A stretch of 44,771 bases of DNA from Candidatus Gastranaerophilales bacterium (lineage in GTDB: Bacteria; Cyanobacteriota; Vampirovibrionia; Gastranaerophilales; Gastranaerophilaceae): contig CALUVE010000014.1 of NCBI GenBank assembly GCA_944324135.1, positions 1-44,771 of the forward strand, given 5' to 3'. Within the stretch, counting starts at the first letter, position 1. Every line of letters starts with the position of its first letter. The notes under the pieces were generated by a model. It was not told the DNA's origin, searched no databases, and was given only the letters and a program-made list of their open reading frames with translations. Position numbers and translations under genes: made by a program. Of this stretch, positions 35,752 to 43,250 are shown in pieces.

Positions 35752-36858
35752 TTACTCTGTGAGATCATACATTTTGCCGTTCGCATCACGCCCTAAACCC
35801 ATAGATTCAAGATTTTGCAAATGGAATTGCATAAAATTTTTCTCTGCATCAGTAAGTTCTGTGCCTGATTTTTGTTTTGAAACAAGGTCATCATAAATAG
35901 CATTATTAATCAGGGTTTTCTGTCCCTGTAATAACAACATGCGGGAAAAGACATTATAATTATCGGATTTTATTCCTCTATAGTTATAATAACCTTGTTC
36001 ATCGGGTTCGATTTTGTTTTCACCCATCAGACTGACTTTAAAATATTTGTTATAGTCTTTATTTTTAATTACGCTGACGCTCATTTGCTGAATTACACGG
36101 AATCCACTGCCGCTTTCATCAGGTGTAATTGCATAAACCCCGACAATTCCATCATCACGCTGAATTATCTGCTTTTGGATTTTCTGTTGGGGATTGTCAA
36201 CCTTTTTGGGTGTAGATTCAGCCGGAGTGCTGTCGTCTACAGTATTTTCACCGAGTACCATTTTGTCGTATTCAGGATTAGTACCGCGCGGCGGTCCGGT
36301 TATAGCTTTTGGAATAACAGGCTCTTCAGCCTCTACAAGCTGGCTGCCGCCTGATTTATCTTCGTACCCCTCTGCATCCGGATTTATTATTATCGGGTGA
36401 TTGTCTTCAAGTTCAGGTATTGGAATCGGCTCTGCCATCTTATATTCTTTCCACGGTTTTCGCATTTCTTCCACGTAGCGAGCGTTTGCGGCTGCGCGCT
36501 CATCCTGAACAGGATTTTTTTCATTATCCGGATTTGCAAAATTTTCATATTCCTCATGTGCCTGATTTACAAAGTTTTCGTAATCCGCATTGGCTTGCTG
36601 CCGGAAACTTTCATAATCAGCATTTGCCTGCTGACGGAAGCTTTCGTAATTTGCATTAGTTTCTTCTTTCATCTTGTTGTATTTAGCTATGGCATCTTCT
36701 TGCATTTTTGTATATTTAGCACGGATATCATCCCGGTATTTCCGATACTCATCCTGAATATTAACGGTATCGCCGGTTGATTTTGCGGAACCTGTGGGTG
36801 GATTATCCCGCTTGTAATCATCATAATAATGATTGTCACCTTCACCAATTCTTACCAT
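35752..36858 (-). CDS. Hendecad-repeat (11-residue) protein of unknown function
   Basis: 368 residues. From about residue 37 to 106 there are six successive 11-residue units, each starting with an acidic, basic or Asn residue plus Tyr, such as KYTKMQEDAIA, KYNKMKEETNA, NYESFRQQANA and DYESFRQQANA. This predicts a long right-handed coiled coil or amphipathic helix. A Pro/Glu-rich linker (about 125-245) and a mixed C-terminal domain (about 250-368) with VYAITPDESGSGFRVIQQMSV follow. No signal peptide. GAGGAG lies before the ATG. No known family recognised. Single gene between two convergent or same-strand neighbours. Confidence 0.7.
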   Translation of the reverse strand: MVRIGEGDNHYYDDYKRDNPPTGSAKSTGDTVNIQDEYRKYRDDIRAKYTKMQEDAIAKYNKMKEETNANYESFRQQANADYESFRQQANADYENFVNQAHEEYENFANPDNEKNPVQDERAAANARYVEEMRKPWKEYKMAEPIPIPELEDNHPIIINPDAEGYEDKSGGSQLVEAEEPVIPKAITGPPRGTNPEYDKMVLGENTVDDSTPAESTPKKVDNPQQKIQKQIIQRDDGIVGVYAITPDESGSGFRVIQQMSVSVIKNKDYNKYFKVSLMGENKIEPDEQGYYNYRGIKSDNYNVFSRMLLLQGQKTLINNAIYDDLVSKQKSGTELTDAEKNFMQFHLQNLESMGLGRDANGKMYDLTE

Positions 36859-36968: not shown

Positions 36969-37886
36969 TTACTGAAACATTTCACTTGAAAGGTACCGTT
37001 CTCCGGTATCGGGGAGGATAACTACAATATTTTTATTTTCAAACTCTTCGCGGTTAGAAAGCTCAATTGCCGCCCACAAAGCAGCTCCTGAGGATATACC
37101 GGCAAGAATTCCCTCTTTTTTAGCTAAAAGACAGGCTGTTTCTATTGCGGCTTCATTTGATACGGGAAGAATTTCATCAATCAATGAGCTGTCAAAATTT
37201 TCAGGCACAAAATTAGCGCCAATCCCCTGAATTTTATGAGCGCCGGACGGATAACCCGCCAGAACCCGGCTTGTAAGCGGTTCTACCGCTGCGGAATAAA
37301 TCTTATTATTTTTAGCTTTCAATGATTTTGTAAGCCCCGTAATTGTTCCGCCTGTTCCAACGCCTGCGACTATTACATCAATTTGCCCGTCAGTATCATT
37401 CCAGATTTCTTCTGCGGTTGTTTTCACATGGCTTTCCGGATTAGCGGGATTTGAAAATTGCTGCGGGATGAAAGAATTTTTTATCTCCTTATGTAATTCT
37501 AAAGCCTTGTCAACAGAACCTTGCATTCCTTTTTCAGCTTCTGTCAGGACAAGTTCTGCCCCGTATGCGGAAAGGAGTTTTCTTCTTTCAACACTCATAC
37601 TCTCAGGCATCGTCAGAATCAATCTGTACCCGCGAACAGCACAAACCATAGCAAGCCCGATACCTGTATTTCCGCTTGTCGGCTCGATTATAACAGTATC
37701 TTTATTCACCAGCCCGCGGCTTTCAGCATCATCTATCATATTCAAAGCAGGACGATCTTTAATAGAACCGGCAGGGTTAAAGCTTTCGACTTTTGCATAT
37801 ATATTTGCCAGACCGGAATTTATTTTATTAATTTTTACAAGTGGTGTCTTACCAATAGTTTCAAGTATATTCTCAGCAATTTTCAT
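36969..37886 (-). CDS. cysK: Cysteine synthase (O-acetylserine sulfhydrylase)
   Basis: PLP enzyme joining O-acetylserine and sulfide to form cysteine. The 305-residue protein has ETIGKTPLVKIN, the PLP lysine at position 43 in NPAGSIKDRPA, the EPTSGNTGIGLAMV substrate loop (about 68-81), GVGTGGTITG for PLP phosphate and KIQGIGANFVPENFD near the active site. The LVK and GTGGT features favour CysK over cystathionine beta-synthase, and it lacks the regulatory CBS domains. AAAGGA lies upstream of the ATG. It lies 34 nt after the hydE fusion gene and may be read through from it. Confidence 0.93.
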   Translation of the reverse strand: MKIAENILETIGKTPLVKINKINSGLANIYAKVESFNPAGSIKDRPALNMIDDAESRGLVNKDTVIIEPTSGNTGIGLAMVCAVRGYRLILTMPESMSVERRKLLSAYGAELVLTEAEKGMQGSVDKALELHKEIKNSFIPQQFSNPANPESHVKTTAEEIWNDTDGQIDVIVAGVGTGGTITGLTKSLKAKNNKIYSAAVEPLTSRVLAGYPSGAHKIQGIGANFVPENFDSSLIDEILPVSNEAAIETACLLAKKEGILAGISSGAALWAAIELSNREEFENKNIVVILPDTGERYLSSEMFQ

Positions 37887-37907: not shown

Positions 37908-37949
37908 TGCCCCCTCACCCTTAATCCCTCTCCCGCAGGGCGAGGGAAA
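37908..37949. repeat. Inverted repeat, cassette 3' end
   Basis: 42 bp, perfectly complementary to 38260-38301. Begins at the cysK side with TGCCCCCTCACCC. Within it, TCTCCCGCAGGGCGAGGG forms a smaller imperfect hairpin. It contains the stop codon of the hydE-DUF559 fusion. Confidence 0.95.
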
Positions 37950-39306
37950 TTGTCTCAAATACTCCGTCAATATTGTTGTCAATATCATTATTCCAGAAAC
38001 GAAGAATTTTAAATCCTCTGGATTTTAAATATTTAGTTCTTTCTTCATCATATTTTTGCTGCTCAGGAGTATTATGCCCTCCTCCATCTAATTCGATTAC
38101 AAGCATTTTTTGTATAACTACAAAATCAACTATGTATTTCCCGATGGGGTATTGCCTTTTAAATTTTGTATTTTCAAATTGACTATTACGTACAAGATTC
38201 CAGAATTTGAGTTCCTGCGGTGTCATATTTTTTCTTAAATATCTTGCAGTATTAGTATGTTTCCCTCGCCCTGCGGGAGAGGGATTAAGGGTGAGGGGGC
38301 AGTCTGTATTTCCCCTGTACCCCTTTTTGTGAGAAATTGTCCTGCCGATTGAGCGGAGTTTTTCTGATAATTCAGTATAATTCACACCCGATTTGTTTGG
38401 ATAAATTTCATATTTGGCACAAACATCTTTATCGGTTAAATTCGGCATCACAACGTTTGCACCGCTTTGGAGAGCGAGTATTCTTCCCGCCGGATTTAAA
38501 GTTTCCATAGCAGTAGTCGCAGGGATATTTATATCAGGCAGCAGCAGACGCGTCAGAGCCATTACTCTCAATGCCAGATCCAAACTGCCGTTTTGCATAT
38601 CTTTCAACGGAGTATGCGGATGAACAATCAAAGGCCCTATCCCAATCATATCAGCATTCAATTCTTTAAAAAATAAAATATCCTCGGCTAAAGATTCTAT
38701 AGTTTGCCCTGGCAATCCTACAAGGCATCCGGTACCGGTTTCAAAGCCTAATTTTTTCAAATCTTTCAAACATCTTATGCGATTTTCAAAACTAGCACCT
38801 GGATGACATTTTTGGTATAACCTGCGGTCTGTTGTTTCAATTCTGAGCAAGAATCTGTCAGCGCCGGCGGCTTTTAGAATTTTATATTCCTCAAAAGTTC
38901 TCTCGCCGATACTCAAAGTAACAGCGACATCATTCTGTTTGATTTCTTTGATAATATCAGCAAGATAACCGGCAGTAAAAAACGAATCCTCGCCGGACTG
39001 TAAAACAATAGTTTTGTACCCGAAATCAACTGCCTTGAATGCTGCTTCAATAATCCTGTCAGCACTCATCCTGTATCTTTCAACATCGCGATTTTCAAAG
39101 CGCAGCCCGCAATAAACACAATCACAACGACAAATATTAGAAAACTCAATTAAAGCTCGAAGATGCACCTCATCGCCGACATAATCCCGTCTGATAACAT
39201 CCGCAGCTTTGAAAATCTGTTCTCCGGATTCACAAGACAACAGAGATACCAACTCTTCCTTATCTAAAGAATGCTCTGTTTTCGCCTTGTTTATCAAATC
39301 ATTCAT
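37921..39306 (-). CDS. hydE: HydE radical SAM maturase fused to a C-terminal DUF559 nuclease domain
   Basis: Residues 1-335 are HydE, which builds part of the [FeFe]-hydrogenase H-cluster: radical SAM motif CxxxCxxC at Cys59, 63 and 66 (CRCDCVYC), YRMSADRIIEAA, TIVLQSGEDSF, LSIGERTFEE, GCLVGLPGQT and ATTAMETLNPAGR. Residues 336-461 come from the inverted-repeat cassette: a PLTLNPSPAGRGK linker and a DUF559 domain with intact nuclease-type residues (YIVDF, then VIELDGGGH). HydE length without the tail is close to normal, so the host enzyme may still work. The ATG at 39306 is preceded by TATAAT 6 nt upstream and no Shine-Dalgarno sequence; a TTG at 39324 is less likely. HydF and HydG are not in the window. 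Confidence 0.88.
   Translation of the reverse strand: MNDLINKAKTEHSLDKEELVSLLSCESGEQIFKAADVIRRDYVGDEVHLRALIEFSNICRCDCVYCGLRFENRDVERYRMSADRIIEAAFKAVDFGYKTIVLQSGEDSFFTAGYLADIIKEIKQNDVAVTLSIGERTFEEYKILKAAGADRFLLRIETTDRRLYQKCHPGASFENRIRCLKDLKKLGFETGTGCLVGLPGQTIESLAEDILFFKELNADMIGIGPLIVHPHTPLKDMQNGSLDLALRVMALTRLLLPDINIPATTAMETLNPAGRILALQSGANVVMPNLTDKDVCAKYEIYPNKSGVNYTELSEKLRSIGRTISHKKGYRGNTDCPLTLNPSPAGRGKHTNTARYLRKNMTPQELKFWNLVRNSQFENTKFKRQYPIGKYIVDFVVIQKMLVIELDGGGHNTPEQQKYDEERTKYLKSRGFKILRFWNNDIDNNIDGVFETISLALRERD
38260..38301. repeat. Inverted repeat, cassette 5' end (within the hydE fusion)
   Basis: 42 bp, perfectly complementary to 37908-37949. Read on the minus strand it encodes the PLTLNPSPAGRGK linker between HydE and DUF559. 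A looser relative (CCCCCCACCTAACCTCCC and CCGCAAGG core) lies at 42556-42590. Confidence 0.95.
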
Positions 39307-42241: not shown

Positions 42242-42272
42242 GATGCAGGAATATAGTTAGTGGTAAAGATTT

Positions 42273-42307
42273 GAAAAATGTCCGGTTTCCCGCAGGGTCT
42301 GAGCTTT
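42273..42307 (+). repeat. Repeat R3, copy A
   Basis: GAAAAATGTCCGGTTTCCCG then CAGGGTCTGAGCTT. Matches 42975-43008. Confidence 0.85.
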
Positions 42308-42308
42308 A

Positions 42309-42360
42309 CGTCATTCTGAGCGTAGCGAAGAATCTACTGGTTTTAATAAAGATGCAGAGG
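42309..42360 (+). repeat. Repeat R1, copy A
   Basis: GTCATTCTGAGCGTAGCG core; matches 42783-42836 and, inverted, 182-232. Confidence 0.85.
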
Positions 42361-42366
42361 GATGAT

Positions 42367-42478
42367 ATTTTGTCACCCTGAACTTGTTTCAGGGGCTTAT
42401 CGGTGGAAAGATTCCGAAACAAGTTCGGAATGACATTATGTTTATTTAATTGTCACCCTGAATTTATTTCAGGGGCTT
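42367..42478 (+). repeat. Repeat R2, copy A
   Basis: Double palindrome with CCCTGAAC...TTCAGGGG and ATTCCGAAAC...TTCGGAAT; matches 56-166 and 42843-42954. Confidence 0.85.
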
Positions 42479-42510
42479 AGCTTGTTAAAATTTGTATAAA
42501 AGTTCTTTGT

Positions 42511-42592
42511 CATGTTCATTTCTATCATTAGTTCTGATGTAAACATCATGTTTGCACCCCCCACCTAACCTCCCCCGCAAGGGGGGAGGAAT
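42511..42592 (+). repeat. Repeat R4, copy A
   Basis: CATGTTCATTTCTATCATTA followed by an AAACATcATGTTT palindrome and a CCCCCGC-rich hairpin. Matches 43035-43100. A shorter relative with GCAAACGTTACGTTTGC is at 42628-42662. Confidence 0.8.
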
Positions 42593-42670
42593 TTAAAAAA
42601 TGCCCTACACTTCTCACACTTTTCCCGCTCATTTCTACTGATGCAAACGTTACGTTTGCCCCTCTACCTC

Positions 42671-42762
42671 GGGGATGCTAGCTCGAACCGGCGAGGTTAC
42701 GAGCCGTGTGAGACTGTATGCCGACTCCGTCGGCTGAGGGGGTGGGGGTGAGGGGTTTTTGA
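42671..42762 (+). repeat. Repeat R5, copy A
   Basis: GGGATGCTAGCTCGAACCGG, then CGAGGTTACGAGCCGTGTG and a GCCGACtccGTCGGC hairpin, ending in GGGTGAGGGG. Matches 43122-43250 with a different 3' part. Confidence 0.85.
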
Positions 42763-42782
42763 CAAATATCACGTTTTCAGTC

Positions 42783-42836
42783 CGTCATTCTGAGCGCAGC
42801 GAAGAATCTCCTGGTTTTAATAAAGAGGCAGAGGAG
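42783..42836 (+). repeat. Repeat R1, copy B
   Basis: Closest copy to the inverted one at 182-232. Confidence 0.85.
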
Positions 42837-42842
42837 TGAACA

Positions 42843-42954
42843 TTTTGTCACCCTGAACTTGTTTCAGGGTCTTATCGGTGGAAAGATTCCGAAACAAGTT
42901 CGGAATGACATTATGTTTATTTAATTGTCACCCTGAATTTATTTGACTACTTTT
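42843..42954 (+). repeat. Repeat R2, copy B, 3' truncated
   Basis: Same as copy A, but the second outer palindrome stops at GAATTTATTT and is replaced by unrelated sequence. Confidence 0.85.
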
Positions 42955-42974
42955 TCCAAAATCTTTGATTTTGT

Positions 42975-43008
42975 GAAAAATGTCCGGTTTCCCGCAGGGT
43001 CTGAGCTT
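42975..43008 (+). repeat. Repeat R3, copy B
   Basis: Near-identical to 42273-42307, but here located after R2 rather than before R1. Confidence 0.85.
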
Positions 43009-43034
43009 GTAAAAAACAATGCAGAGATTTTTTA

Positions 43035-43100
43035 TCATGTTCATTTCTATCATTAGTACTGATGCAAACATCATGTTTGCCCCCCGCAAGGGGGAGGAAC
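43035..43100 (+). repeat. Repeat R4, copy B
   Basis: Matches 42511-42592 with a short deletion in the C-rich part. Confidence 0.8.
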
Positions 43101-43121
43101 TAAAACTACCCTAGCCCCTTG

Positions 43122-43250
43122 CGGGATGCTAGTTCGAACCGGCGAGGTTACGAACCGTGTGAGACTGTATGCCGACGCCAGTCGGCTGAGGTAGAATTTC
43201 ATAACGAGCGAATGCGAGTTCTAGAAATTCGGGTGAGGGGTTTCTGCTTA
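43122..43250 (+). repeat. Repeat R5, copy B
   Basis: Matches 42671-42735, then carries an extra GAATTTC...GAAATTC inverted segment before the common GGGTGAGGGG end. Confidence 0.8.

Follow-up and report, generated by a model that had tools for sequence, protein, structure and literature searches.

A DUF559 nuclease cassette with inverted arms in bacterial hydE: a probable homing-type element, presumably translated and not spliced

Introduction

How does a nuclease domain come to sit, in frame, at the end of a hydrogenase maturase? The question is raised by a hydE gene of a Candidatus Gastranaerophilales genome (assembly GCA_944324135.1, here G000), carried on the window, the whole stretch of 44,771 nucleotides that was analysed. 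An earlier note on this DNA saw no obvious biological logic in the combination, a judgement that was incomplete, since the cassette is one member of a recurrent class found also in priA, ispE and genes of other phyla. We regard it as probably a homing-type selfish cassette, one that would be translated with its host gene, kept as a domain of the host protein and never spliced.

The HydE-DUF559 fusion gene

The fusion frame occupies positions 37921-39306 of the minus strand (ATG at 39306, stop codon at 37923-37921) and encodes a two-domain protein of 461 residues, with the position and length, though not the strand, that the earlier note had given. Residues 1-335 (38302-39306, minus strand) are the radical SAM maturase HydE, assigned by TIGR03956, alignment and predicted fold. 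The TIGR03956 match covers fusion residues 4-329 (model positions 1-338 of 340, 356 bits), and the cysteines of the CxxxCxxC motif (C59, C63, C66) are invariant in the alignment. Residues 350-457 (37936-38259, minus strand) are a DUF559 nuclease domain (PF04480; E 9e-37, 125.7 bits against a cut-off of 20.6, profile positions 3-108 of 109), in which the catalytic E, D, D and H are intact. The cassette lies between the end of hydE and the start of cysK (36969-37886, minus strand; TIGR01139, 439 bits), the co-directional gene that follows, which was also recognised by eye beside hydE in relatives, with the cassette present or absent. The hydG gene of G000 is present and whole.

The reading frame runs through the first arm of an inverted repeat into DUF559, and the stop falls inside the second arm; frame and profile matches thus bear out the read-through that had been described. 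Alignment with HydE of relatives places the native ends of tail-less hydE genes within about 10 residues of the fusion junction, and the tail is absent from 45 of 49 hydE genes. There is indeed no native hydE stop in frame, but it was displaced by the insert and not merely mutated, as these native ends indicate.

A sequencing error, which the earlier note had named as a possible source of the fusion, is unlikely because the tail is present in four genomes with a dN/dS near 0.1. The wider possibility of an assembly or binning artefact takes some encouragement from the genomes compared, which are mostly metagenome assemblies and include bins that look wrong (such as L195, titled 'Acinetobacter', with a PrmA host). 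Set against the four hydE tails, the selection signal and the in-frame HsdM inserts in the strain-titled records of Mariprofundus erugo P3 and Methylomonas sp. WSC-7, it is the least probable of the explanations considered and can practically be dismissed.

The inverted arms

The 5' arm in the gene direction (42 nt, 38260-38301) consists of a head, CCCTCACCC, and a hairpin, CCCTCTCCC..GGGCGAGGG. It is translated as CPLTLNPSPAGRGK, a predicted disordered linker, with fusion residue 336 as the first residue that it encodes. The 3' arm (37908-37949) is its exact inverted copy (100% complementary over the 42 nt); it extends over the end of DUF559 and includes the stop codon of the fusion. A 24-nt piece of the arm occurs at only two places in the 1.82 Mb genome when up to three mismatches are allowed, and these are the two arms.

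Such arms are a general feature of DUF559 copies. For 112 of 128 copies the best inverted-repeat score was at least 16, a level that 16 of 640 control windows with the same geometry attained; this excludes chance as the source of the arms. Scores of at least 20 were reached by 93/128 copies and 2/640 control windows, and a GC-rich arm motif stood on both sides of 73/128 copies and in none of the 640 control windows (the 128 include the duplicate loci L182, L197 and L243 and the broken L083 and L226 where their flanks allowed scoring). Arm sequences vary between sites on a common build of head and hairpin, paired in inverse order, and the cassette arms begin with sequences resembling the CCCTCACCC head. 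In the ispE genes of G001 and G002, complementarity of the arms has been lost (scores 12 and 10) and the reading frame kept. By eye, arm orientation differs between free and host-embedded copies, the hairpin being outermost in many free ones (e.g. L045, L058, L066) and the CCCTCACCC head mostly so in embedded ones (compare L068, L072).

This build resembles that of REP sequences and invites a different reading, in which a transposing palindromic element of REP, RPE or MITE type has mobile arms and a transposase-like DUF559, scatters through the genome without homing, and survives in genes only where it is harmless and in frame. The hairpin does occur alone: among its 12 places in G000, three belong to the priA and hydE cassettes and nine are solo, none of the nine lying in an open frame recognisable by eye as a known gene. 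Intragenic REPs are also known from repair and tRNA-synthetase genes (PMC3733652, section cited). The target-site duplication expected of a classical DNA transposon could not be defined, the insertion sites being variable linkers and ends at which no empty site could be aligned at base level.

An in-frame insert in essential enzymes, bounded by a long inverted repeat that could fold in mRNA, would also be expected of an intein, a self-splicing intron or a ribosome-bypassed stretch, each of which would leave a mature host protein without the insert. Between host and DUF559 lie arm-encoded residues, free of any splicing domain; DUF559 takes up the rest of the insert, and hydE has no downstream part to rejoin. 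No intein family was found among the Pfam or NCBIfam matches of the fusion loci scanned, and L001, L002 and L003 gave no Rfam match at gathering score, hence no catalytic core of a group I or II intron; intein and intron were rejected for want of a family match. Ribosomal bypass was rejected as not needed, the frame being open throughout and the arms of the G001 and G002 ispE cassettes being unpaired. As a group, these explanations are very improbable.

Some further repeats and remnants were observed. At the cassette site, the end of G001 hydE (L146) carries a GC-rich remnant, CCTCCCCTCC..GGGTAAGGGTGGC, perhaps the scar of a cassette that was deleted. Elsewhere in the window, dispersed repeats with CGTCATTCTGAGCGnAGCGAAGAATCT lie at 174-232, 42309-42365 and 42782-42840, beside other duplicated blocks (42272-43180), and resemble the CGTC-tagged REPs described in the relevant section of PMC3733652. 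A 33-nt tandem repeat at 36576-36657 lies in a coiled-coil-like frame (35752-36858, minus strand).

Recurrence in host genes

Three strong DUF559 copies occur in G000 (1.82 Mb, 99.9% complete), each in frame with a conserved gene: one at the C-terminus of hydE, one within priA and one within ispE. The priA cassette lies just before LLHGVTASGKTEVY, which we take to be the Walker A motif of PriA. The interrupted priA and ispE genes are the only copies in the genome, other matches being weak, partial relatives. A fourth, weak DUF559 match, at the end of a helicase-like protein, has no such arms.

Among 99 genomes of relatives (G000 included), the 49 strongest, near full-length DUF559 places were taken, one of them (L083) broken, and 21 of the 49 lie in host frames. 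The hosts are priA (G000, G003, G030, G046), ispE (G000-G003, G023, G040), hydE (G000, G002, G003, G016), an M14 peptidase, IleRS, Mod-type and MmeI-type methylases, and a UvrD-type helicase interrupted at two different places (G014, G053). Presence within the family is patchy, at 4/49 genomes for hydE, 4/52 for priA and 6/52 for ispE (G000 counted). The hydE tail is absent from G001, of the same genus, and from G052, of the genus of G016; in priA and ispE, the sites without a cassette correspond to variable linkers. Two ispE genes are more elaborate: that of G040 (L036:2657-4387) has, within a single frame, an N-terminal as well as an internal DUF559 cassette, and that of G003 (L049:2350-4173, minus strand; 608 aa) holds a cassette with duplicated, nested repeat stretches around it, all in frame.

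This pattern bears on the idea of a domesticated fusion, in which the host keeps the nuclease domain because it is useful to HydE (or to PriA or IspE). The domain is under purifying selection and nucleic acids are the substrate of several hosts (PriA, Mfd, UvrD, restriction-modification enzymes), as domestication would predict. It would not predict presence that is patchy even within a genus or sites that are empty in close relatives, and HydE, IspE, PrmA and AIR synthase share no common process. We therefore consider domestication improbable.

The cassette extends well beyond the family. In a scan of named genomes, of which the best 80 of at least 577 loci were examined, 16 of the 80 lie in host frames. 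HsdM is interrupted at one and the same place in Mariprofundus and Methylomonas, and HsdS likewise in Nitrospira and Binatia; ValRS is a host in Rickettsiales and Anaerolineales and Mfd in Rickettsiales, alongside PrmA, a CCA-enzyme-type protein, an MmeI-type protein and further priA, ispE and M14 genes. By record titles, the phyla include Pseudomonadota, Nitrospirota, Binatota, Chloroflexota and others. From the class to which the Methylomonas genome belongs, 274 genomes were drawn evenly; DUF559 was present with an E value no higher than 1e-25 in 57 of them, at 80 places, 65 of them in frames shorter than 300 aa and 15 in frames of at least 300 aa. A host domain was found in 13 of these 15. 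Pfam assigns 10 of them to restriction-modification (HsdM 4, HsdS 3, HsdR 1, N6_N4 methylases 2), the other three being DUF1156, AIR synthase and an aminotransferase. The host-embedded form is thus a minority in that class, but a regular one.

In all, 138 DUF559 copies from several phyla were compared, 49 of them in host genes (including IleRS, ValRS, Mfd, UvrD, PrmA and HsdM/S/R). Their own ATG within 30 codons upstream is retained by 78/87 free and 8/37 host-embedded copies. A stop soon after the domain is found in 76/87 free copies and in 4/37 host-embedded ones (the four hydE tails), a comparison partly built into the definition of host-embedded. Left out of these two counts, the domain tree and the count of catalytic residues were the duplicates L182, L197 and L243 and the broken L083 and L226. 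Host labels were given from long frames and by eye, then by Pfam or NCBIfam for most; those of L204, L207, L233, L038, L040, L047, L048, L056, L062, L065, L067 and L072 were assigned by aligning or comparing these loci with tested members. Where a long frame showed no host domain (L203, L225, L242, L251, L253, L310, L312), the copy was counted as free, and so were the copies in four unscanned long frames (L209, L234, L235, L244). The preponderance of free copies (87/124 in the tree, besides the 65/80 short frames above) again favours a transposing palindrome.

Type I restriction-modification hosts recur, as HsdM (L199, L238, L313) and HsdS (L210, L249, L314, L315), several at the same place. 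The Rickettsiales genome G101 has only two DUF559 copies at E 1e-15 (L219, L221), both host-embedded (ValRS, Mfd). The PrmA-hosted cassette of L195 groups with Gastranaerophilales copies, and the record is perhaps a misbinned contig. A phage origin of the cassette was considered and rejected: one DUF559 query passed its threshold in 3 records of a phage set of 50,697 and in 43 of a plasmid set of 72,556.

Selection and insert-only similarity

In three host genes the insert is far more similar between two species than the gene around it. For hydE of G000 and G003, dS is 1.035 in the host part and 0.067 in the insert (Fisher's test on synonymous sites, 1e-13); for priA of the same pair, 0.94 and 1.99 in the host and 0.197 in the insert (3e-12); and for ispE of G001 and G002, 0.77 and 0.35 against 0.208 (4e-4), dS values near or above 1 being rough. 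Low insert dS does not reflect constraint, because the hydE insert of G000 and G002 has a dS of 1.28. Sliding identity peaks over the insert. For hydE of G000 and G003 the peak is at 96-100%, falls sharply at the 3' arm and runs out raggedly into the 5' flank, an overlap that suggests something like co-conversion.

Other pairs look as they would under vertical descent, which counts against homing: insert and host divergence do not differ for hydE of G000 and G002 (p 0.30) or ispE of G000 and G003 (p 0.06), and are not visibly different for priA of G000 with G030 or G046. Inheritance and transfer at one site therefore both appear to occur. The earlier note's term 'recent insertion' accordingly suits the spread between G000 and G003, which is recent relative to the host gene, but not the inserts of G000 and G002, which are as diverged as their hosts. 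Insert-only similarity could also come from ordinary recombination of a short tract. The HsdS insert is 74% identical between Nitrospira and Binatia and the host, which is hypervariable, about 40%. The same-site HsdM inserts (61%) are less alike than their hosts (87/75%), which counts against homing.

For pairs with finite dS below 2, insert dN/dS is about 0.1 (0.04-0.19), which indicates that the nuclease domain is under purifying selection. The catalytic E, D, D and H are intact in 49/49 host-embedded and 89/89 free copies. In a tree of 124 DUF559 domains (87 free), the four hydE rows and the six priA rows each form one group, with one change each; HsdS forms a pair across phyla, and M14, HsdM and ispE are not single groups. 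A transposing palindrome leaves unexplained both this grouping of nucleases by host site and the same-site, insert-only similarity between species, and in the G001 and G002 ispE genes the nuclease is still under selection even though the arms are no longer complementary. We accordingly judge that explanation unlikely, though clearly the strongest competitor to homing.

Predicted structures

The predicted HydE part (residues 1-335) superimposes on Thermotoga maritima HydE with Z 51.7 and rmsd 1.5 over 334 residues, and the fold is complete to residue 335, in keeping with the earlier view of an insertion that spared the enzyme. Fusion residues 333-365 have pLDDT below 50. The model was built from alignment A3; set aside were alignment A4 and the mixed alignment A5, in which the short DUF559 rows fell on the HydE N-terminus. 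The model's DUF559 part therefore rests on four rows and is of low confidence (about 53), which weakens what it can add to the case for homing. In the IspE-DUF559 model, both halves of IspE come together around the insert in the IspE fold (Z 32.5, rmsd 1.8 over 257 residues, from 2 to 416), DUF559 is predicted at about 85 and the arm-encoded stretches (196-215, 333-346) are disordered. As modelled, both host folds are undisturbed by the insert and the arms encode flexible linkers; the disorder of the arm-encoded stretches beside intact host folds predicts that the arms act as linkers.

A proposed mechanism

The homing proposal builds on what was observed: the anatomy of the cassette, its recurrence in frame, a nuclease that has kept its catalytic residues under purifying selection, and similarity between species that is confined to the insert. 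From these we infer cutting, homing, production of the fusion and the role of the arms. A DUF559 nuclease of Vsr/EDxHD-like type, bounded by a pair of inverted, GC-rich hairpin arms, would enter the C-terminal end of hydE in frame. Without a start of its own, the cassette would be made only as part of the host protein. As the earlier note had proposed, hydE plausibly supplies its promoter and start codon, in line with most embedded copies having lost their own ATG. Once translated, the arms would form flexible Pro/Gly/Arg linkers and keep nuclease and enzyme apart, which would make splicing out unnecessary. The nuclease would then cut the same site in an insert-less allele, and repair would copy the cassette with a little flanking DNA into the cut allele; cutting and copying at the same site would keep the cassette at fixed sites across species. 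Rare jumps to a new gene or an intergenic place may occur, in which the arms probably take part, and the cassette would be tolerated because it enters loops and ends.

As far as sequence comparison goes, fixed sites, patchy presence, insert-only similarity and a selected nuclease are together the signature of a homing element. One DUF559 gene has been filed in the EDxHD homing family (PMC9403480, passage cited). On the other side, many free copies are intergenic and are not explained by homing into a host gene, and the passages cited of PMC12907096 tie the DUF559 protein VsrA of Caulobacter to mismatch repair. Whether the cassettes together form an unnamed, pan-bacterial class of splice-less homing elements is an evenly balanced question; in such a class, a nuclease between protein-coding palindromes would be a permanent, looped-out, in-frame domain of essential enzymes, use the host start codon and expression, and be kept at each site by homing between species and even phyla (HsdS).

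Homing elements are, to our knowledge, thought to need splicing for life inside essential genes. The cassettes suggest another route, by read-through, self-encoded flexible linkers in the terminal repeats and a seat in loops. If the proposal is true, DUF559, a large family of unknown function, gains a role, and a group of palindromic repeats gains an assigned enzyme. Annotators would have reason to treat unexpected domains in IspE, PriA, ValRS or HsdM as passengers, protein engineers would have natural insertion sites with linkers, and the old question of how protein-coding palindromes spread would become directly testable.

Comparison with known systems

No printed account of a DUF559 cassette with inverted repeats was among the matches listed from the literature searched, which omits most subscription papers and preprints, and none of those listed for the arm motif CCCTCTCCC was related to it. 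Published systems are characterised below from the cited sections of each source. Among printed cases, the nearest are Rickettsia palindromic elements (RPEs) and intragenic REPs, together with the ShiLan insertion described below. In-frame palindromes were described early in Rickettsia (PMC10969869), and both kinds of element lie in frame, and are translated, in housekeeping, repair and tRNA-synthetase genes (PMC10969869, PMC3733652). The cassette likewise appears, from its DNA, as a palindromic repeat in frame in the open reading frame of a host. RPEs are about 150 bp long (PMC10969869), grouped intragenic REPs encode some 20-82 aa, and CGTC REPs are reported, in the section cited, without a dedicated transposase (PMC3733652). 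The DUF559 cassette differs in having a complete nuclease between its arms, as part of the host protein.

The nuclease is related to the EDxHD and Vsr enzymes. The DUF559 profile matches 3r3p, a 'mobile intron protein' which we take to be the EDxHD enzyme I-Bth0305I, at E 4e-5; other PDB matches are weak (toxin B chains and PvuRts1I, at E 0.02 and above). The cassette has the catalytic E, D, D and H, in 138/138 copies, with the spacings named for the DUF559 protein VsrA (PMC12907096). I-Bth0305I has been described as a homing enzyme of phage that carries additional DNA-binding parts and has a target nearly 60 bp long (PMC3943268), whereas the cassette has a nuclease domain only, set between palindromes and fused to bacterial enzymes.

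Inteins with homing nucleases are in-frame, site-specific and patchy inserts of essential genes, with insert-only similarity. The cassette shares all of these traits (compare PMC11855218), but has no splicing domain, and its insert would stay in the protein. Closer in this respect is the ShiLan insertion, a non-splicing, stop-free insert in a phage methylase that homes between divergent phages and is predicted to loop out (PMC11855218). Its HNH nuclease lies in another frame and starts at an internal GTG (PMC11855218), whereas the cassette nuclease shares the reading frame of its host, is flanked by palindromic arms and occurs on the chromosomes of bacteria from many phyla. In REPtrons, too, hairpin repeats in inverse order stand on either side of a nuclease gene, but their RAYT is an HUH tyrosine enzyme (PMC3733652) and DUF559 is of the metal-dependent PD-(D/E)XK type (PMC12907096); no HUH tyrosine transposase lies between the arms in the scanned loci, where DUF559 is the sole domain found. 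The DUF559 cassette thus combines traits of the Rickettsia palindromic elements with those of the EDxHD homing endonucleases.
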